Shown here piece by piece: positions 8,005 to 19,092 of a DNA stretch of 44,998 nt (position 1 is its first letter; the number at the start of each line of letters is the position of its first letter). Below the pieces are notes generated by a model, which made no database searches, had not been told where the DNA came from, and was given only the letters and a program-made list of their open reading frames with translations. The position numbers were made by a program, and so were the translations under genes. This stretch comes from an uncultured bacterium (lineage in GTDB: Bacteria > Cyanobacteriota > Vampirovibrionia > Gastranaerophilales > Gastranaerophilaceae): assembly GCA_947361225.1 (NCBI GenBank), contig CANAIK010000007.1, positions 1 to 44,998 on the forward strand. Reading direction: 5' to 3'.

Positions 8005-9462
8005 ATGTACGAATATTTTAAAAACTTAATAGACAAATCCGCCTGTCAATCAATCGGTGCGTGTTCAACCCATCCTACGATGAGTGCTTTATATGATATT
8101 TTCTTATCACAGCTAAGGGAAATTTCTTTTTATTTGGTAAAATTAAAAGAATTTGGAATTACAAACAAAGAAATAATGGCAAAATCAATTGAATCTTTGT
8201 CAATTTTTCTTATCAACACGAGTTTTAATCACCAAAAATATCTTTCTTTGATTGTTGAATTAAACGAGCTAAAAAATCAAATTAAAGAAAAATATCTTCT
8301 TTATTGTGCTCAAAAAGATTTCCCTTGTGAAATTATTAATACAAATGTCCAAATTGACAAAAAAACCACAATTTCAGAGCTAATTAACGCTGCGCAGAAT
8401 AAACAAAAAAATCTTGATAAGATAAAACAAAGATTATTTGAACTAATTACAATTTTTGCAAAATTATCTGCTATTGACGTTATTAAAATTAAAAAATTCG
8501 ACCCTACGTTCGATAAATTCGATTTTGAAATCTTAAGATTTTTTGCCCTTACGAACGGCTATTCAATAAGGAATGAAAAAATTGTAAGAAGAATTAAAGA
8601 ATTTAGTAAAATTAATTTAGAAATTAAAGAAAAACTTTATTCGACCCTTGAACAACAATACGGAAAAAAACAGAATGCAACAATTCTCACTTCCCCTGTT
8701 AAAGGACACTGCATTTTGGTTTCAGGGGATGATTTAAACGAACTTGAGGAGCTTTTAAAAACCCTCGAGGGACTTGAGCTAAAAGAACAAATCAATGTTT
8801 ATACGCACGGACCTTTAATTCTGGCCCATTTTTATCCTTATTTTAAAAACAACAAATTCCTAAAAGGACACTACGGGTCAAACAACGCTCAGTACGATTT
8901 TTCAGTATTCCCTGGTTCAATTCTAATAACACAGAACTTTGTTCAAAAAATCGACAATTTATATAAAGGTGAAATTTTCTCGAATAAGATTATTTCTTAT
9001 GAACGTGTTTTTGATATCAAAAACAACGATTACAAACCCATAATTGAAGCAAGTTTATCACAAAGCGGATTTTTATCGAATCAAGATAAAAAAGAAATTA
9101 AAGTTAACTATGAAATCGATGATATAAAAAATATTCTATCCGATTTTTGCGATAACGAAATTGCGATTGTGACATCAAAAATTGATGATTCAGGATTTTT
9201 AGACGAATACGATAACAAAAAAATAATTTATTTTAATTGTCCCCTGGAGAATGATTTATTGATTGAAACAATTAGAACCCTTGAGCAAAAACAGGTAAAA
9301 ATAAGCGTTTTTAACTCTCAATGTACTATAGAAAATTTAAATACGATTCTGTTTTTACTTAGCAAAGAACTAAATCTTTATTCTGTTGATTGTACTTCAA
9401 TCCTAATTAATCCACATATTATTGAATCATTGAATGAAGATTTTGGCGTTAAGACAATATAA
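8005..9462 (+). CDS. Degenerate hybrid-cluster protein (Hcp/prismane) homologue
   Basis: 485 residues. Landmarks of Hcp are recognisable in order: SACQSIGAC (15-20) like the second half of the N-terminal Cys motif, then PVKGHCILVSG (231-241), INVYTHG (263-269), the KGHYGSN region (288-293), FPGSILIT (302-309), and the C-terminal INPHIIESLNEDFG. Yet residues that hold the clusters in true Hcp are changed: the first CxxC is replaced by E3/K6, the His of SGHD is D, the Glu of THGE is P, the Cys after the FPG motif is N, and the persulfide Cys and distal Glu have no counterpart. C412 and C440 may be survivors. True Hcp reduces hydroxylamine/NO; this one is unlikely to. Its role is unknown. Alignment is by eye. 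Confidence 0.75.
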   Translation: MYEYFKNLIDKSACQSIGACSTHPTMSALYDIFLSQLREISFYLVKLKEFGITNKEIMAKSIESLSIFLINTSFNHQKYLSLIVELNELKNQIKEKYLLYCAQKDFPCEIINTNVQIDKKTTISELINAAQNKQKNLDKIKQRLFELITIFAKLSAIDVIKIKKFDPTFDKFDFEILRFFALTNGYSIRNEKIVRRIKEFSKINLEIKEKLYSTLEQQYGKKQNATILTSPVKGHCILVSGDDLNELEELLKTLEGLELKEQINVYTHGPLILAHFYPYFKNNKFLKGHYGSNNAQYDFSVFPGSILITQNFVQKIDNLYKGEIFSNKIISYERVFDIKNNDYKPIIEASLSQSGFLSNQDKKEIKVNYEIDDIKNILSDFCDNEIAIVTSKIDDSGFLDEYDNKKIIYFNCPLENDLLIETIRTLEQKQVKISVFNSQCTIENLNTILFLLSKELNLYSVDCTSILINPHIIESLNEDFGVKTI

Positions 9463-9524: not shown

Positions 9525-12500
9525 TTAACTTGCTTGATTGTATAAATAGCTCATATATTGAGGATTTTCACTATGCGGAGCATAGAAAATCAAATTGTTG
9601 TTATCAAATGAAATTTTATCAGCGTTATCTAACGGATAACCTTTTTGTATCTTAGGAATTGCACTTTCTTTATAAATTGAACCTTTATAAACAACATATC
9701 TTGATTTATCATCCAAATAATAGGTTTTATCGGAATTGTATATTTTTCTTTTAAGAATTGTTCCGTCTTCTAAAGGAGCTATGTTGTCATCCGATTTGAT
9801 TGGAATGCAATCCAAAGAAATTTTAGTTTTTTTCATTTCTACAGGAATGTTAATTTTTTTCCCGTCTGATTTTTCAACTTCTTTTGAAGTCATCATACCG
9901 TTATTTGTTGCAATCGAAACAACCCTTGACCCTTTTTCGTCATAAAAATAACTTGGTGCAAGATTAAGAGTATATTTATCAGCTTTTGTATAATAAGTTT
10001 TTAGAGCATTGAATTCTTTGTCGAATTGTTCAAATTCAGCATCATCAAGCCCGAACATCTCTTTTACAAGACTTCTGTATTCTTCAGGGTGATTATTTCT
10101 TTTATCATCCAACGATTCAAACATAATTTTAACATTAAGTCCGTCTGTTTGATTTGAATCTTGATATTTAAATGTTATTTGAATAAAATCTGCAATTTTT
10201 TTACTAAATTTATCAAAATTTTTGGGATTTACTTTTTCAATCGAATAATCCCTAGCAAGCATTTCTTCTTTGTAAGTCTTGAGAATATCACAAAAACCGC
10301 CCCTTAGCGCACTTAAATCTTTTTTCATATGCAGCGCACAATTGATTTCATAGAATTTTCTATCCGCCTTAAAAAGATCGTTTTCTCGAAGTTCGGATAA
10401 AACTCTGTTTCTGTTTGTGCAATAAACATTCTTACTTTTAGTTTCATAACCTGTTTCAGCATATTCAGTTCCATTTAGAACCGTAAATACACCTGGCAAT
10501 GAATGCGCAATTTCTACAATTGAATTAAAACGTTCTTTTGATGCTTTCAATGCCTCTTGCTCAAGTTCAATACCCGAAACCGTATCAACATTTGCATAAT
10601 TAAGCGCATCTTGAAGAGAATATTTAAAGGCAGTTGCGCCAAAAACATCCGCTCTATCAAAATCAGGCTCGTCGGAATCTTTTATTTTTCCGTTTGCAAG
10701 ATTTGTAATTGCGTGTTTAACTTTTATTTTATCATCATCACCCAACAATTCGGACTTATCAACGGCTTGTTTCAAAAAATGAGCCGTAGCAACAGCTTTA
10801 GCGGAAATATTCTCATAATCGTCCCTTCCTGTTACATCTTTTGCAATTTGCTTGTAATAAACATTAGCGTTAGATAAATCTTCGGTTAAGAATAATTTTG
10901 TATCCAAAGGAAAGCAGTGGAGCGGGAACGGCTTGTCGTGATTATGCGTAAAAAAGTGCGCATAAATAAAATTGTTGGGCTGAGAAACATTCATTGATTT
11001 TTTAACAATTTGCATTAAATCTTCCAGATTTCCGCATTTGCTTGGATAATTAGCTCCTGTTTCAGGATTAACCCCGAATAATTCTGATAAATTGTTAAAA
11101 TATTCAAACATTGAGGTTGTTGTGGAATTTGTTTTCCCGAGGTATCTTTTCTCAATAACAACCGGAGGATGCTCTCTATATTCATTCCAGTTGTCTAGTT
11201 CTTCTTTAGTCATATTCTTGACTTTTTCAAAGAATTTAGCATCGTAGTCTCTAATTGAATCTAGATCTTTCCATTTGTAGATAGAATCACCCATATCTGT
11301 TAATTCATTAATAACCGTAGATGCAGGATTATAACGTCTTATATTGGAAATAAAATCGCCCCAGAATGCTTGAACTCCTTCGTCTTTGTCACTTCCGTTC
11401 CAAATTTGATCGAAAGTCGCATCCCCGTTTTTAACAGCGTCAATATCGCCAACGTCTTTCGCTGCATCAAATCTCCAGTTCAAGCCGGCTTTAGATTTAA
11501 GAACAATTGATTCAGCCAATTTGAAGTCTTCAAGTTTAATTTTATTTAAATCTTTTTTAATGCTTTGTTTAATTTTATCGCCATTCTGCGGACTAATTCC
11601 TGCTAAAATCCCCTTTAAAACACTTTCTCTTTCTTCTTCGGGACTGGTTATTGGAATAAGACCTTCAAAAGTTTTTATATTAACGTTTTTTAATTTGGAT
11701 AGAATCGGTTTTCCGTTGTCGTCAAGCAAATTAGAATCAATTGCTCCAACGATAACACTTTTAATAATATCGGGAGCATAAGATTTAACAACAAAAGTCC
11801 TGTATTCTTCGTTATCTTTATATTCGTCAGGAATAACTTCGTCAATAACGGAATTTACAATGCTAGACAATTGTTGATAAGCACTTCCGCCTTTTTTGTT
11901 GAATTCATTCTGGAATTCAACTTGAGAAAATACTGCGCTTAACTCAGACGAGGTTTCAATTGATTGCAAGGGGAAAGAATCAACATAATCCTCAACTTTT
12001 AAATCCTGATCAAGAATAAATGAATCAGCGTCGTCATTATCGATTGCTTCTTTAATATTTTCATATTCTTGAGCACTTATTCTATTATTTTTTGCAACTT
12101 CCTGTTTTTCTTTATCACTCAGAAGAGGAGTTTTGTGGATATGTTCTCTTTGAATGGTTTCAGTCCAAAAAGCAGCTGCGTTAGTTATGTAGTTTCTTGC
12201 ATTTTTGCAACCTTCAATATTTTTTGGATCATTAGTCGGGTTGGAAAGATTCAATTTTATAAGATCGACACTTCCATCCCAGAAAGTTGCCCCTCCGGCT
12301 TTTGATTTGGTGACAATTTTTCCATTCTCAAAAGTCAAAAAATCATCCAAATTTTTAATTTCGCTCAAAAAAACCTTATTAGAACCATCTTTAAAAGCAT
12401 TCTTAATTTTTTCTTTTGTTTTTGGATCCTTAGGGTCAATTTCGAATGCATAAGGATAAACCGAGCTGTTTGCGTCTATAATTTCATAATGATCGTCGGG

Positions 12501-13544
12501 TTCTTTATCGTATGTAAAAATAAGATTTTTTGAATCGTCTTGTTTTTTTTGTGACAACAAGCGTCTATCAAAAAACTGAATATAAGTCGGTTTTGATTTA
12601 TCATAATTAGAATTTTTCGGATGATTTACAAGTCTTATTCCGATATCGTCATAGATATCTTTTTTAGCCCCGATTTTTCTTTCGGGAATAACACCGGGCT
12701 GCAATTTGCCATTGATTTTCAACATATTATAAAAAGGAGATTTGTCACCCCATTTGAAAACGTGTTGCACCATTGGTGAATTTATACCCATTGAAGTAAA
12801 AGCGCCGTCTGCAACGTAGCCTTTTCCTTTTTGGAATAACTTAAAGTTTAATTCTTTAAAATCATCCATATTGCTGCATTGATACTGGTTTTCAGGCCAA
12901 TATTTATGAGACGAAATTTTATCGTTTCCAATATCAGGATTTGTCATTACATAAGAATAAGAATTAAGAATATCCGTGTAATCTAAGATATTAATCAAAT
13001 CCTTTGTTGTTCCACCATATAAATTATACGGATTTCTTGGAGTTGCTTTAACTGTTTTTACATCAACGTTTGAAGTTTGCGTGTAGATATTTGAATCTTT
13101 AAAATAATGGTACATATTACCACCTTTAGGTGATAAACCGTAAAAAGAACCCATTTCAATAAGATTCATTTCATTTCCGTTGTTATCTTTTATTCTTTGA
13201 GAACTGTCAAGATAATATCTGGTTTCCCCGTCTTTGGATTCGATTCTATATCTTATTCCAAGGCCGGTTGTAAATTTTTGGATAAGTTCTTGAGAAAGCT
13301 GAATCGGTTTTTCATCTTTAAATTCTTTTGTTTTTATTTGTTCTTGTTTAGGAAAAATATATTCATTGGTTTTCGGATCCAAATTAAGATATGAATATTC
13401 CAAAAATACCTTATCACCGGTTTTGTGAGGAGGAATTGTAAATTCAAGACAAGGAACGTTATATTCGTTAATTTCACCCTTAACGCCCTTAAAGTTTAGA
13501 TTTTCTTTATTGGCTTGTCTTAAAGTAATTGTTGATAAATTCAT
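9525..13544 (-). CDS. Giant divergent GH13 alpha-amylase-family protein (1339 aa)
   Basis: The last gene of a four-gene minus-strand operon, with AAGGAAAA before its ATG. Residues 1-130 look like a beta-rich N-terminal domain. From about 140 a GH13-like TIM barrel can be traced: VADGAFTSMG (244-253), FWDGSVDLIKLNLSNP (421-436), then the core WRFDAAK (nucleophile D693), VINELTD (acid/base E747) and THNHDKP (D870). About 250 residues, mostly helical and acidic, are inserted between the WDG segment and the nucleophile strand. A further large C-terminal part (about 900-1339) has no recognised domain. No signal peptide is seen. It probably acts on alpha-glucans or related saccharides in the cytoplasm; specificity unknown. 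Confidence 0.7.
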   Translation of the reverse strand: MNLSTITLRQANKENLNFKGVKGEINEYNVPCLEFTIPPHKTGDKVFLEYSYLNLDPKTNEYIFPKQEQIKTKEFKDEKPIQLSQELIQKFTTGLGIRYRIESKDGETRYYLDSSQRIKDNNGNEMNLIEMGSFYGLSPKGGNMYHYFKDSNIYTQTSNVDVKTVKATPRNPYNLYGGTTKDLINILDYTDILNSYSYVMTNPDIGNDKISSHKYWPENQYQCSNMDDFKELNFKLFQKGKGYVADGAFTSMGINSPMVQHVFKWGDKSPFYNMLKINGKLQPGVIPERKIGAKKDIYDDIGIRLVNHPKNSNYDKSKPTYIQFFDRRLLSQKKQDDSKNLIFTYDKEPDDHYEIIDANSSVYPYAFEIDPKDPKTKEKIKNAFKDGSNKVFLSEIKNLDDFLTFENGKIVTKSKAGGATFWDGSVDLIKLNLSNPTNDPKNIEGCKNARNYITNAAAFWTETIQREHIHKTPLLSDKEKQEVAKNNRISAQEYENIKEAIDNDDADSFILDQDLKVEDYVDSFPLQSIETSSELSAVFSQVEFQNEFNKKGGSAYQQLSSIVNSVIDEVIPDEYKDNEEYRTFVVKSYAPDIIKSVIVGAIDSNLLDDNGKPILSKLKNVNIKTFEGLIPITSPEEERESVLKGILAGISPQNGDKIKQSIKKDLNKIKLEDFKLAESIVLKSKAGLNWRFDAAKDVGDIDAVKNGDATFDQIWNGSDKDEGVQAFWGDFISNIRRYNPASTVINELTDMGDSIYKWKDLDSIRDYDAKFFEKVKNMTKEELDNWNEYREHPPVVIEKRYLGKTNSTTTSMFEYFNNLSELFGVNPETGANYPSKCGNLEDLMQIVKKSMNVSQPNNFIYAHFFTHNHDKPFPLHCFPLDTKLFLTEDLSNANVYYKQIAKDVTGRDDYENISAKAVATAHFLKQAVDKSELLGDDDKIKVKHAITNLANGKIKDSDEPDFDRADVFGATAFKYSLQDALNYANVDTVSGIELEQEALKASKERFNSIVEIAHSLPGVFTVLNGTEYAETGYETKSKNVYCTNRNRVLSELRENDLFKADRKFYEINCALHMKKDLSALRGGFCDILKTYKEEMLARDYSIEKVNPKNFDKFSKKIADFIQITFKYQDSNQTDGLNVKIMFESLDDKRNNHPEEYRSLVKEMFGLDDAEFEQFDKEFNALKTYYTKADKYTLNLAPSYFYDEKGSRVVSIATNNGMMTSKEVEKSDGKKINIPVEMKKTKISLDCIPIKSDDNIAPLEDGTILKRKIYNSDKTYYLDDKSRYVVYKGSIYKESAIPKIQKGYPLDNADKISFDNNNLIFYAPHSENPQYMSYLYNQAS

Positions 13545-13568
13545 AAATAACTTTTCCTTATTTAAATT

Positions 13569-15659
13569 TTAAGCAGCTTTAACATCGTCTAAATATTGCT
13601 GTTTTAATACATTCTTTGGATTTGATAATTGCTCAATTTGACTGTCATCAATTTCAAATACCAGTGCTCTGTTTGTTCCTAACTCTACTGAAATTGTGCC
13701 GTCTTGATTGTTTTGAATTTTGCAATCTTCACCAAATTTAGGCATTAAATTGTTGAATTTTTGATTTGGTTTTAATCCCGGAATTAAAATTTTCCCTGAA
13801 ACTTTAAAGTTAACATTTCTATTACCTATAAACAACAAGGTTTTTCCGTCTTTATGTCTTGCAAAAGAAATGATTTCATCATTATTCGAAGGAAGAATTA
13901 TAAACGACCCTTTTGTAATAACATCTTGAGCGTTTGTCATTTGAAGTTTATTTTTAAGGTTCAATTCGTTATATTTATTGTTTCTCAATGCAAAAGCCGT
14001 TTTTACAACATCTGCAATTTCAAGATTTTTTCCTCCCGGTTTTCTTGATTTGTTGAAAATGTCCATTCTTCCGGTATGAACCGTGCATTCGTGGTTATCT
14101 GTCTCACTTTGTTCAACAGTTGCGTGGTCATATGGGAAAATGTAATAATCGCCGGTTTGGACTCCGTCTGTCATATAAGGATTTACTTGAGGAAGCATTG
14201 ATTGAAGGGTTGTTGTAAACATTACCCAGGGCGCTCCTCCGTATAACATCGGAGAAACATCATCGTGGGTTGCAAAAGACCCGATTAAGCTTTTTGCACT
14301 TCCGATTTCGTTATTCATATCGATATTTTCTTTGACATAATCATACAATTGAGACGCATTGGTCCAATCCTGGAAAATATGGTATTGCCCGTAGTATGTG
14401 TCAAAACCGGCCTCTAATAAGTCTTGAGGCCTATCGTGAGGCATATTGAGCATAGGACTGGCGTCTTCGTGGGTGTAAGTTTCAGCTAACCAGCCGAATT
14501 GAGGGTCTTTTGCTCGGGAATATTGAGTTATAACATTCCAGAACCCAACCGGTTTTGCCCTTCCGACATCGGCTCTTATTCCATCAAAGCCTAAATCGAT
14601 TGTCATATCAACATATTGTTTATGCAAATCCAACAAAGCTTTGTTTAATTCTCTTGTAGATTCATTCTCGAATGGTTCAAGCATTCTTATATCTTGCCAG
14701 CCTTTCGGGGTTTTGTCTTTTCCGTCCGGAGTTCTTGCCATTAAATGAGGATATTTTTTTGCAAAATCCAAACTAACGCAGGACGGCAAATCCAACATTA
14801 CTTTAATTCCACGTTTATGGCATTCATCAACAAAATATTTACATTGAGCAAAAGCAACCTCAGGGTCGTTTTTATCCATTTTGGTCAGCTTTTTGCCTGT
14901 TTTTTGTTCATATAGCTGAGAAATTCTGTCATACGCCTCTTTTGGAGGATTTTCATCTACCAATTCAGGATCCAAAGTTAATAATTCAGCCGGAGCATAA
15001 ACGGAACCCGCTGTTCCCATTGCATTGGTTTTTCCTGTCGGATGAATGGGAAGAACGTGTAAGGTGTTAAATCCCAATGATTTAATTTCATCCAATCTTA
15101 GAACGTCATTAACAAAAGTTCCCGATTTTTCATTCCCCTGGATTAATTCGTTGCCGTCTAAATCCTGAGCGTTCATTATTCTTGGAATAACGGCTAGAAT
15201 TTGGGCTTTATTTGTAATTAAGGATTCTCTAAGATTATTTTTGTATCCGGGAACCCTTTCTTTAGATTCAGCCAAATTAACATTCGAAACATTATTTGTT
15301 TTAGGAGTTTGCACTATTTGTTTTGTATTAAAATTATAAATCGGCGCAGGTTGTTGATTTACAACCCTTGTTTGAACGGGAACCTGCGGCATTTGATAAA
15401 TCGGTTGAGAATTGAGCACAGGTTTTACAGGGTAATTATAAATCGGCACTTGAGGCATTTGATAAGCCATTGGAGCTGTTCTATAAGGAATAATTTGAGC
15501 AGGTTGAATTGGTTGCTGCTGCATTTGAGGCATTTGATAAGCCATTGGAACAGGAGTTCTATAAGGAACAATTTGAGCAGGTTGAATCACCTGTTGTTGA
15601 ACTTGAGACATTACAGGCATTCTATAAAATTGATTTTGAGCTATTACAGGATTAATCGC
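13569..15659 (-). CDS. GH13 alpha-amylase-family protein with Pro/Gln repeat N-terminus (697 aa)
   Basis: Residues 1-125 are low-complexity, Gln/Pro/Tyr-rich, with two copies of an IQPAQIxPYRT...PMAYQMPQ unit. A GH13 TIM barrel follows: FNTLHVLPIHPTG, KVMLDLPS (289-294), GFDGIRADVG with nucleophile D365, WLAET with acid/base E394, and THDD with D467; a C-terminal beta-domain closes the protein near residue 680. The region-I NH dipeptide normally after the Asp is not present. No signal peptide. ATG directly follows the stop of the upstream gene (the listed end may be taken as 15662, the first base of the ATG), with GGAGGTG in that gene's last codons as ribosome-binding site, so it is coupled to the membrane protein. 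Confidence 0.85.
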   Translation of the reverse strand, partial: AINPVIAQNQFYRMPVMSQVQQQVIQPAQIVPYRTPVPMAYQMPQMQQQPIQPAQIIPYRTAPMAYQMPQVPIYNYPVKPVLNSQPIYQMPQVPVQTRVVNQQPAPIYNFNTKQIVQTPKTNNVSNVNLAESKERVPGYKNNLRESLITNKAQILAVIPRIMNAQDLDGNELIQGNEKSGTFVNDVLRLDEIKSLGFNTLHVLPIHPTGKTNAMGTAGSVYAPAELLTLDPELVDENPPKEAYDRISQLYEQKTGKKLTKMDKNDPEVAFAQCKYFVDECHKRGIKVMLDLPSCVSLDFAKKYPHLMARTPDGKDKTPKGWQDIRMLEPFENESTRELNKALLDLHKQYVDMTIDLGFDGIRADVGRAKPVGFWNVITQYSRAKDPQFGWLAETYTHEDASPMLNMPHDRPQDLLEAGFDTYYGQYHIFQDWTNASQLYDYVKENIDMNNEIGSAKSLIGSFATHDDVSPMLYGGAPWVMFTTTLQSMLPQVNPYMTDGVQTGDYYIFPYDHATVEQSETDNHECTVHTGRMDIFNKSRKPGGKNLEIADVVKTAFALRNNKYNELNLKNKLQMTNAQDVITKGSFIILPSNNDEIISFARHKDGKTLLFIGNRNVNFKVSGKILIPGLKPNQKFNNLMPKFGEDCKIQNNQDGTISVELGTNRALVFEIDDSQIEQLSNPKNVLKQQYLDDVKAA
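15450..15587 (-). repeat. Two tandem copies of a Pro/Gln-rich coding repeat
   Basis: Encodes residues 26-46 and 52-71 of the 697-residue GH13 protein. The copies share IQPAQ, PYRT and PMAYQMPQ, and the DNA is nearly identical over about 60 bp, so the duplication is recent or under homogenisation. Shorter YQMPQVP echoes follow. Confidence 0.75.
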
Positions 15660-15662
15660 CAT

Positions 15663-17906
15663 TTATTTAGCACCTCCGTCTTTTTTTTGGTTGTCCGGAT
15701 TTTTTACTTTTCCAAAGAACGGCTGTATTAATAAAGTCGAAATAGATAAAATAATTGCCATTTTTCCGAATTTTCTTAACCAAGATTTATCATTGTAAAG
15801 TTTTGTTGCTTGTTGTTTCATTAAAGTTGCAAAACTTCCGGCTCTAAAGAAGTTTTCTTTGTTGGTTCCGCTAAATTCTTGAAGTTCACCCACAATCGTT
15901 CTAATTCCGGGCATAACCTTTTCTTCATCTTTAAAGCTTTCTTTATCGAAAAGAATTTTTATTGCTTTTTGATATAAATTTACATCTTTTGTAAATCCGG
16001 AGTTTTGTCTTAAAGATGCGGTTCCGTCATAAGCAATTTTTCTCATCATATCAATCAATTGCGAACCGTGTTTTTTAAAATCTGGATCTTCTTTTAATCT
16101 TCTTTCAAAATTAGCGCAAATTATCGGTTTTACTTTAACTGATAACAAATCTAATTTTTTGCAGTTTATATAATTAACAAAAGTTGATACAACGCCTCCT
16201 TTGGAGAATATTTTTTTAGTTGGATCTTGAGCTGAGGGTTCAATTGTTCCAAAAATCGCTTTATCAAGAGATTCAATTCCTTTTTTAGGAGCAAGAGCGT
16301 TTAAATATGATTCTTTTGAAAAATTATCGATTAAATCGGTTAAGTCCGAAATGGGTTCCCCTGTTATATTTTTTAGCAAATCAATATATTCATCCTTGGT
16401 TTTTGTTTTTCCTACTGCGTTTTTGAATATATTAGATAAAATTTCTATAGTTTCGTCAACCGAGCTGTCTTTAAGTCCTTTTAAAGTATTGTTTGAATTC
16501 TTGGAACTATATTTAATATCAAGTTTTTTAATTAAATTAGTCATTGAATCATTAAAAGTTTTTGTTGTAATAGATTCATATTTAGATCCCGCAATGGGAT
16601 TAAGTGCGTCTAAATATGCTTTAATATTTCCTCTCATTTTAGAGAAAACTGTTTTATTGTATTTTTTTACAGTTTCGTAAAAACCGTTTGAATCTAATCT
16701 TAGTTGTTTATTAGAAACAATTTCATCAATTTGTTTGGTTGTAAAATTATGTTCTGTTAAAACTTCTTTGGTTTTGGAAATTGTCGGATTCTCACCCAAA
16801 TCATTAATTATTTGTTTAATTTTATCGTCGCTCAAAGAACTTGATTGTTGAGAAAGCTTTGCTTTTCTTGCTTTTTTACCCATCATTGCAGCTTCTTCAA
16901 AATCGTCCGTAATATCATTGGCTATTTCAAAATCTTGAAGAATATTCTCTAAAGAACTTGTTCTAACGACTGCTTTTTGTTGATAAAGATCTTGGAATTG
17001 TTCAACAACTCTATTTGTTGAGAATTCTTTAAGAATATTGATATCGTCTTTGTCTTTTACAACATCAGCCAAAGAGGCAAAGTTAAACATTTTTGAAAGT
17101 TGTTCAAACATTTGTTTATCAGGGCTTTTCCCTGCTTTTTCGTAGCTTTTGAACAATTTATCCAAACTTTGTGAATCAATTGGCAGCGATTGTGAGTTTT
17201 GGATATATTCACCAAAAGTTTTTGGATTTTTCATTAACTTAGAGGCTTTTTTGTAGTTGTGCTCTACAATTTTGTTGTAAACAAAAGGTTGTGCAACATT
17301 TCCGATTAAAGAAGTCATTAAAGGAGCACCAAACGCTACAGTTGCAAGATTCAAGGTTCTATTCTGCAATGCAACCATTCTGTGTTTTTCCCTGTCTTCT
17401 TCTTTAATTCCGGTAATATCCCATACGATATATTGGTTATCAAGATAAAGATCTTTTTTATCACCTTGCGCACTTATGTATTTTTTATCAACATCAACCC
17501 CGTGGATTAATTTTGCCGGTGTGTTAATAAAAATTTTGGGCCACAATGACATTGAGGCTAAAAACGCACCGCCGCCAACGAATTTCATTGCAGCATCAGT
17601 TTTGGTTTTAGAATTAAGTGCAAGATAAGAAGCAATTAACAAAGATCCGAGTTTCATCCCTAAATCATTAATTCTTCCTAAATTATTATCTGTAATTTCG
17701 CCTGTTTTTATAGCTTTAGAAAAATTATAAACATCTTTTCCGCTATCCTTAAGTGCTGAAGCTGCGCTTTGGAAAATATTTTCATCAACAAGAACGGCTT
17801 TATTCTCATTTGGTTTTATTGTGTGAGCATTTTTTGCCAAATTTTCATAAAGTCTGTCGTGACTTGACATTGGTTGATTGAATAATAGAGGATTAATTGT
17901 TGTCAT
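15663..17906 (-). CDS. Membrane-associated helical protein of the GH13 operon (about 747 aa)
   Basis: The start is the ATG at 17906, 7 nt after GGAGG; it shares one base with the upstream TAA (TAATG). A TTG six bases earlier is too close to the ribosome-binding site. Hydrophobic segments lie at about 85-130 (GSLLIASYLAL and GGGAFLASMSLW), at about 190-210 (LATVAFGAPLMTSLIG) and near the C-terminus (AIILSISTLLIQPFFG). The centre, about 220-680, is helical, Lys/Asp-rich and soluble-looking. No known domain is recognised. It resembles the preceding 335-residue protein in layout and in a KYI...ALQN pattern. Likely an inner-membrane partner of the two GH13 proteins. Confidence 0.8.
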   Translation of the reverse strand: MTTINPLLFNQPMSSHDRLYENLAKNAHTIKPNENKAVLVDENIFQSAASALKDSGKDVYNFSKAIKTGEITDNNLGRINDLGMKLGSLLIASYLALNSKTKTDAAMKFVGGGAFLASMSLWPKIFINTPAKLIHGVDVDKKYISAQGDKKDLYLDNQYIVWDITGIKEEDREKHRMVALQNRTLNLATVAFGAPLMTSLIGNVAQPFVYNKIVEHNYKKASKLMKNPKTFGEYIQNSQSLPIDSQSLDKLFKSYEKAGKSPDKQMFEQLSKMFNFASLADVVKDKDDINILKEFSTNRVVEQFQDLYQQKAVVRTSSLENILQDFEIANDITDDFEEAAMMGKKARKAKLSQQSSSLSDDKIKQIINDLGENPTISKTKEVLTEHNFTTKQIDEIVSNKQLRLDSNGFYETVKKYNKTVFSKMRGNIKAYLDALNPIAGSKYESITTKTFNDSMTNLIKKLDIKYSSKNSNNTLKGLKDSSVDETIEILSNIFKNAVGKTKTKDEYIDLLKNITGEPISDLTDLIDNFSKESYLNALAPKKGIESLDKAIFGTIEPSAQDPTKKIFSKGGVVSTFVNYINCKKLDLLSVKVKPIICANFERRLKEDPDFKKHGSQLIDMMRKIAYDGTASLRQNSGFTKDVNLYQKAIKILFDKESFKDEEKVMPGIRTIVGELQEFSGTNKENFFRAGSFATLMKQQATKLYNDKSWLRKFGKMAIILSISTLLIQPFFGKVKNPDNQKKDGGAK

Positions 17907-18913
17907 TAACAAACCTCCGTTTCTTTGTTAGGGTCAAGCTGCGTTTTTAAGGTATCCGGTTTTTGTTTAAAGGCAATTACGGGAATTAACCAGCTAAGAA
18001 GAGTTGAAACAACGCTTAAACCCAAAAGTGCCTTGCCTGCGTGTTTGTGGATAAAACTTCTGTCTTTTCCTTCACCCAAGAATTGTTTAAAACCTTTTTT
18101 GAATGAATTTTTAATGCTTTTTAAACTTCTAAAATTAATTTCCCCGAAAGCCTCTTGAGAACCAAGCGCAACACAAGTTGCAGCTACAATATATTTCCCG
18201 ATATTCTGCAGTGCTGTTGTTCTTGCTTTAACGCCTCTAATTCTTTTATTAATTTCTTGATCAGGCGAGTTAAGGGGTTTATCTATTCCTGCTTTTTTTG
18301 CAATTTTATCTTTGTAATAATATCTTGAGCCGTGGTTTAATTCCCCGTCATATGCCAATAAGTCGTCTCTAAAGAATGTAACAGAATCATAAACGCCTGG
18401 TTTTTGTTCTCTTACAATTCCTTGTTTTTCGCCATTTTCGGGCAATTCGGCATTTTTATTTATATATTTTTGTTCTAAATTAATATCCGTTGATTTTTTA
18501 ACTCCAAAATTTGAAATTTTTGAATGCAGCCATTTACCCAAGGCAAAAAGCACAACGCCCATTCCCATCATTTTAGCGCCTTTAGAGGCTGAGGCGCTGT
18601 CTTGAGCGTTAAAGAATTTATTAGCCCCACAGCTTGTATAAATGAGCATGAAACTTCCGATTAAATTAGGAACAATCCCCATTGACAAATATTCGTAAAA
18701 ATCGCTGTTTTTAGACCCTTGAAATCCTTTTGGAAAGTAGGTAACAACGTCATTTGTTAATTTATGCGCATAAACCTTTGCGTTTGTAAGGAATCCTTGT
18801 TTTTGAGGAATATGCGATTCATTTTTGGCATGTTCTTCTTTTATTTTTTCCTTGTCTATGTAATAACCGGTCTTAGGCACTGGTTTTGCTACCGGGTTTG
18901 TTATTCGCTGCAT
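17906..18913 (-). CDS. Membrane protein, first gene of the GH13 operon (335 aa)
   Basis: The start is placed at the ATG at 18913 (MQRITNPVAK), preceded by GGGG at 5-nt spacing; a longer form from 18940 lacks such a site. Four hydrophobic segments are seen: MGIVPNLIGSFMLIYTS, MGMGVVLFALGKWL, YIVAATCVALG and LLGLSVVSTLLSWLIPV. An intervening segment (INLEQKYINKN ... RTTALQN) matches the corresponding part of the next protein in layout, suggesting ancient duplication. No known family is recognised. Same-strand, overlapping placement marks it as the start of the operon with the GH13 enzymes. Confidence 0.75.
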   Translation of the reverse strand: MQRITNPVAKPVPKTGYYIDKEKIKEEHAKNESHIPQKQGFLTNAKVYAHKLTNDVVTYFPKGFQGSKNSDFYEYLSMGIVPNLIGSFMLIYTSCGANKFFNAQDSASASKGAKMMGMGVVLFALGKWLHSKISNFGVKKSTDINLEQKYINKNAELPENGEKQGIVREQKPGVYDSVTFFRDDLLAYDGELNHGSRYYYKDKIAKKAGIDKPLNSPDQEINKRIRGVKARTTALQNIGKYIVAATCVALGSQEAFGEINFRSLKSIKNSFKKGFKQFLGEGKDRSFIHKHAGKALLGLSVVSTLLSWLIPVIAFKQKPDTLKTQLDPNKETEVC

Positions 18914-19092
18914 TTTTACCCCAAAACATCTAACACACATATATTTAAAATATTGTAAAGATAAAAATTTGCCATGTTTTTTATCAATTATTAATAAATG
19001 TTAATATTTTAATAACCGTAAAATCTACACTAAATCTGCTATTTAGCGACAAGCTAATTTTTTCAACAACACATTATTTCAATTTTTGCCTA

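Follow-up and report, generated by a model that had tools for sequence, protein, structure and literature searches.

A class-restricted gene cluster of two membrane proteins and divergent GH13 proteins in Gastranaerophilales: a candidate membrane-tethered alpha-glucan-processing complex

The closest described relatives of the cluster reported here belong to the GH13 superfamily, which is well known; its membrane partners, here called M1 and M2, and the arrangement of the genes are undescribed. The neopullulanase/cyclomaltodextrinase/maltogenic amylase group of GH13 (1sma, 1ea9, TVA I 5z0t, TVA II, 2wc7) shares its barrel and catalytic triad with GB, the larger of the two GH13 proteins of the cluster, and the N-terminal region of GB is alignable with that of TVA I. 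However, GB is about twice as long as these enzymes and only 16-18% identical to them, carries huge helical inserts inside the barrel, adjoins membrane proteins and has no NCBIfam match. TreY (3hje, 6lcu), a GH13 enzyme that also has large inserts, is the top Foldseek match of GB, but the TM-score is low. The catalytic regions of the second protein, GA, align with those of 1gju, 4gkl, 3dhu and GlgE (3zss), from which GA is set apart by a region I that reads DLPSC, by an N-terminus of low complexity, by its genetic linkage to M1-M2 and, in family f9 of the class, by being covalently joined to M2.

Sus, maltose-ABC and glycogen operons likewise contain GH13 alpha-glucan enzymes, but no SusC/SusD-like or ABC genes were seen in the cluster, and its enzymes are coupled to M1-M2 and lack visible signal peptides. 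A GH13-fold protein with a membrane partner is also found in rBAT (SLC3) and its amino-acid transporter; rBAT, however, occurs in animals and has no enzymatic function, whereas in GA and GB the triads are invariant, and no transporter matches M2 by fold. In the literature searched we found no description of the cluster, or of such membrane tethering of GH13 enzymes.

The Gastranaerophilales (Melainabacteria) are non-photosynthetic relatives of the cyanobacteria that often occur in animal guts; the literature searched outlines their sugar metabolism from genomes only. Genome surveys predict that they ferment starch and glycogen (PMC4040986; PMC3787301). We propose that M1-M2-GA(-GB) forms a membrane-tethered, probably cytoplasmic complex that processes alpha-glucan or maltodextrin, and we assign this reading a probability of roughly 0.55. 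A near-universal cluster with a natural fusion offers a concrete handle on alpha-glucan handling in this order, and would add a means of anchoring GH13 enzymes at the membrane.

Gene order and linkage

The window, meaning the whole stretch of DNA that was analysed (44,998 nucleotides), is the entire contig C7 of a 1.9 Mb genome. A check of its open reading frames placed all four genes where the earlier note had claimed them, on the minus strand in the order M1-M2-GA-GB, with coupled or near-zero gaps:

17906-18913, minus strand: M1, small membrane protein, first gene of the cluster
15663-17906, minus strand: M2, second membrane protein, containing a long, variable helical stretch and, C-terminally, a hydrophobic helix
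13569-15662, minus strand: GA, GH13 protein of 697 aa, triad D365/E394/D467, low-complexity Pro/Gln N-terminus
9525-13544, minus strand: GB, giant GH13 protein of 1339 aa, triad D693/E747/D870, barrel broken by helical inserts

The longest reading frame of M1 spans 17906-18940, and the ATG at 18913 is the start preferred among orthologs. M2 has an alternative start, a TTG at 17912; its ATG at 17906 gives a TAATG overlap with the M1 stop codon. The gap between M2 and GA is zero, and that between GA and GB was recounted as 24 nt, against 25 previously. In keeping with the reported absence of Sec signal peptides, none was visible when the N-termini of all four proteins were inspected. Beside GB, at window positions 8005-9462, lies a gene for a divergent prismane/hybrid-cluster-like protein (NCBIfam hydroxylamine reductase, 160 bits against a cut-off of 367), which adjoins GB in most members of the genus.

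Chance does not explain this arrangement. Of the 146 genomes of the order, 141 contain GA and 136 contain GB, and none of the genomes sampled from the same family or the same order lacked M2. Save for one marginal match of M2 (G289, E 3e-5), M1 and M2 are restricted to the class: M1 was found in the same family and in class families f9 and f15, but it was missing from the listed genomes of families f8 and f10-f14, and no genome beyond the class yielded it. Among 107 distinct GA loci, M2 lies directly upstream of GA at 103 and is fused to it at 3, the remaining locus being at a contig edge, so that adjacency or fusion is seen at 106 of 107. The M2-GA gap at the 103 loci ranges from -98 to +78 nt, with a median of -4. 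At most loci the M1-M2 and M2-GA frames overlap or touch at their stop and start codons, in the order M1-M2-GA, which suggests that the three genes are translationally coupled. One genome in which GA seemed to lack M1 and M2 (G114, locus L063) is best accounted for by a contig break, as two M2 halves lie near two contig ends.

GB is the direct downstream neighbour of GA at 56 of the 107 loci; in many genera it is unlinked from M1-M2-GA, and in some it lies elsewhere in the genome. M1-M2-GA is therefore the strict unit, which GB often joins. The earlier view of the four genes as one conserved cluster holds, though GB is less tightly bound than the other three. The search for co-conservation that had been suggested as a check was strongly positive, and neither of two results that would speak against the idea, a failure of the genes to co-occur elsewhere or membership of the membrane proteins in a known unrelated family, appeared when looked for.

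Natural gene fusions are the best evidence that M2 and GA act together, as they very likely do. In three genera of f9, which belongs to another order of the class, M2 and GA are encoded as a single reading frame after M1, with the M2 part N-terminal and the GA part C-terminal, and the separate M2 gene is missing. The fused frames, of 986, 1030 and 1082 aa, match the M2 HMM at E 4e-44 to 4e-37 and the GA HMM at E 3e-143 to 2e-120:

L076, 9229-12189, plus strand: M2-GA fusion, family f9
L079, 9820-12912, plus strand: M2-GA fusion, family f9
L080, 9000-12248, plus strand: M2-GA fusion, family f9

Two divergent GH13 proteins

GA and GB had been described as GH13 proteins with complete catalytic triads, and profile matches and residue conservation bear this out for both, as does the predicted fold for GB. 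A GA profile built from 18 orthologs has the Thermotoga maritima maltosyltransferase 1gju as its best PDB match (E 3e-22), and also matches the alpha-amylases 4gkl and 3dhu and, with a lower score than either, GlgE 3zss (E 7e-16). Regions II and III align with 1gju, 3dhu and GlgE, and D365, E394 and D467 are invariant across the 18 orthologs. The window copy has sub-threshold Pfam matches only, with PF00128 not listed among them, while the ortholog at L074 scores 33.5 bits against a cut-off of 22; nothing rose above the NCBIfam or PHROGs cut-offs. Judged by these profiles, GA is a genuine but very divergent GH13 protein. It has almost no hydrophobic segments. Its region I reads DLPSC where Asn-His is usual, which suggests that its catalysis, and with it the reaction, may be out of the ordinary.

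These matches also bear on a possible but rather unlikely reading, in which GA is GlgE- or maltosyltransferase-like and the complex builds or primes alpha-glucan at the membrane, possibly a storage or envelope glucan. The best profile match would agree with it, and the alignment with GlgE takes in the catalytic stretch of GA; however, plain alpha-amylases outscore GlgE, and GA is too divergent for GH13 subfamily specificity to be read.

The GB profile (17 orthologs) has its best matches in maltogenic amylase 1sma (E 6e-20) and cyclomaltodextrinase (E 7e-20). Region III of 1sma and of 1ea9 can be aligned with the stretch around the catalytic Glu, and D693, E747 and D870 are invariant across the 17 orthologs; in region IV the usual His is replaced by Tyr or Gln in two orthologs. 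For the window copy there was nothing meaningful in Pfam, no NCBIfam match, the TreY model included, and nothing above the PHROGs cut-offs; the ortholog at L074 reaches 22.4 bits with the Pfam alpha-amylase family, for which the cut-off is 22. An AlphaFold model of GB residues 95-1250 (pLDDT 83, pTM 0.83) contains the (beta/alpha)8 alpha-amylase barrel together with hundreds of extra residues, largely in helical inserts, and superposes on the alpha-amylase TVA I 5z0t with Z 28.6 and rmsd 3.4 over 445 residues. By profile and predicted fold, GB is a genuine but very divergent GH13 protein with an alpha-amylase fold. Foldseek ranks the TreY structures 3hje and 6lcu at the top (E 3e-6, full-length alignment, TM-score 0.25-0.40), whereas with VIA-align ordinary amylases come first, not TreY. 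A TreY-like role for GB may be kept in mind because Foldseek puts these maltooligosyltrehalose synthases first, at a low TM-score.

Most GB proteins have no hydrophobic segments. Near the N-terminus, at residues 16-20, there is a hydrophobic-x-F-x-G motif in which F18 and G20 are invariant in the 17 orthologs; the possibility that it is a general sorting tag was rejected, since unrelated proteins encoded nearby show no enrichment of it.

The membrane partners M1 and M2

M1 and M2 typically have two to four moderately hydrophobic segments each, so that their earlier description as multi-helix membrane proteins is fair, if the membrane character is mild. The two are homologous to one another: a profile-profile comparison with hhalign gives E 2e-6 over the N-terminal part of M2, and the M2 HMM picks up M1 proteins of f9 down to E 7e-12. 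On these comparisons, M1 and M2 are paralogous membrane proteins. Neither has a Pfam, NCBIfam, PHROGs or PDB sequence match above the cut-offs. M2 was modelled alone, from a compact ortholog, and the model is nearly all-helical (pLDDT 85); fold searches of it gave no match below E 0.5, with a best Z-score of 8.4 to a designed protein, and a comparison with viral models gave nothing convincing. The statement that the membrane proteins are unrecognised is accordingly borne out by sequence for M1 and M2, and by fold for M2. Counts of charges flanking the hydrophobic helices of M2 (the positive-inside rule) gave no topology, which leaves us to infer the membrane side.

It is conceivable, though unlikely, that M1 and M2 are the founders of a new membrane-protein family that anchors GA and couples sugar passage or sensing to GH13 catalysis. 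If so, a coupled, membrane-bound glucan-processing machine would be a defining trait of this non-photosynthetic class of cyanobacteria.

Genome setting and proposed role

In f9, GB is divergent from M1, and at five loci it adjoins an MFS gene whose best family, below the cut-off, is the sucrose/proton symporter group (GPH_sucrose-like, SLC45/GPH-type). This linkage of transporter and GB was seen in f9 only; a homolog of the symporter gene is kept, but unlinked, in 10 of the 11 members of the order tested, the window genome included:

L074, 13536-15038, plus strand: MFS sugar symporter beside GB, family f9
L075, 1387-2763, minus strand: MFS sugar symporter beside GB, family f9
L076, 2654-4003, minus strand: MFS sugar symporter beside GB, family f9
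L079, 2852-4240, minus strand: MFS sugar symporter beside GB, family f9
L080, 1894-3345, minus strand: MFS sugar symporter beside GB, family f9
L194, 7211-8599, plus strand: MFS symporter homolog, window genome, unlinked to the cluster

Several other genera carry a GA paralog, 37-40% identical, that has a visible Sec signal peptide and at three loci lies beside a ROK-type kinase, named by reading its sequence and not by a database search:

L188, 6733-8280, minus strand: exported GA paralog, beside ROK-type kinase
L189, 6115-7644, plus strand: exported GA paralog, visible Sec signal peptide
L190, 6605-8161, minus strand: exported GA paralog, visible Sec signal peptide
L191, 6669-8225, minus strand: exported GA paralog, beside ROK-type kinase
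L195, 5642-7315, minus strand: exported GA paralog, beside ROK-type kinase

The paralog was not seen in the window genome, and a comparison of its cysteine content with that of GA was uninformative. The contrast between an exported paralog and a tethered GA is compatible with GA acting inside the cell on a substrate of the same type. The window organism probably has an internal alpha-glucan metabolism, because its genome holds GT5 genes, a GT35 phosphorylase, a GH77 gene, a GlgX-like debranching enzyme and a TreS-like GH13 protein that seems to be exported.

In the complex that we propose, M1 and M2 would serve as anchor and scaffold for a class-specific, apparently coupled unit, with M2 holding GA at the membrane, as the natural fusions suggest, and GB acting as a second, bulky GH13 enzyme in the same pathway. 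Its most likely job would be the cleavage or transglycosylation of maltodextrin or another alpha-1,4-glucan at the cytoplasmic membrane, on its inner face; the sugar symporter would feed it, and its products would pass to glycolysis and to the enzymes of glycogen metabolism. Of this picture, the conservation, the overlapping genes, the fusion, the GH13 and M1-M2 homologies and the invariant triads are observed directly; that the proteins form a complex in the window organism, which face of the membrane they work on, their substrate and their type of reaction are inferred. The earlier note had suggested a membrane-bound complex for alpha-glucan or glycolipid. The membrane-bound complex for alpha-glucan is well supported, and the alpha-glucan role is favoured because the GH13 relatives of GA and GB are maltosyltransferase, amylases and the neopullulanase/cyclomaltodextrinase group, because an SLC45/GPH-type symporter adjoins GB in another order, because the exported GA paralog lies beside a ROK-type kinase, and because GT5, GT35, GH77 and GlgX-like genes occur in the same genome.

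The glycolipid half found no support. Membrane association, and the finding of a membrane protein fused to a GH13 domain, would suit a cluster whose GH13 proteins act at the membrane in the synthesis or trimming of a glycan that is lipid-linked or on the surface, but the cluster has no recognisable conserved glycosyltransferase, flippase or lipid-biosynthesis gene, and the conserved neighbour in f9 is a sugar symporter; we think such a role quite improbable. By analogy with rBAT, GA and GB might instead be non-catalytic accessory subunits of an M1/M2 transporter, as the pairing of GH13-fold proteins with membrane proteins and the presence of rBAT among the weaker fold matches of GB would allow. 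This is very unlikely: triads invariant in the orthologs of both GA and GB are not expected of idle subunits, and the M2 model is unlike any known transporter. The view that the genes are mere neighbours in a slowly rearranging genome, doing no joint work, is largely refuted, for although GB is separated in many genera, and the TPR and RsmG flanking genes also stay put in the genus and in genomes close to it, the flanks (HCP-like, TPR, RsmG) differ between families and orders while the M1-M2-GA core persists, and M2 and GA are fused in three genera.

The size of the genes also varies. In genus g14 (L192, 4346-10700, plus strand) they are enlarged, with M2 at 1000 aa and GA at 742 aa.
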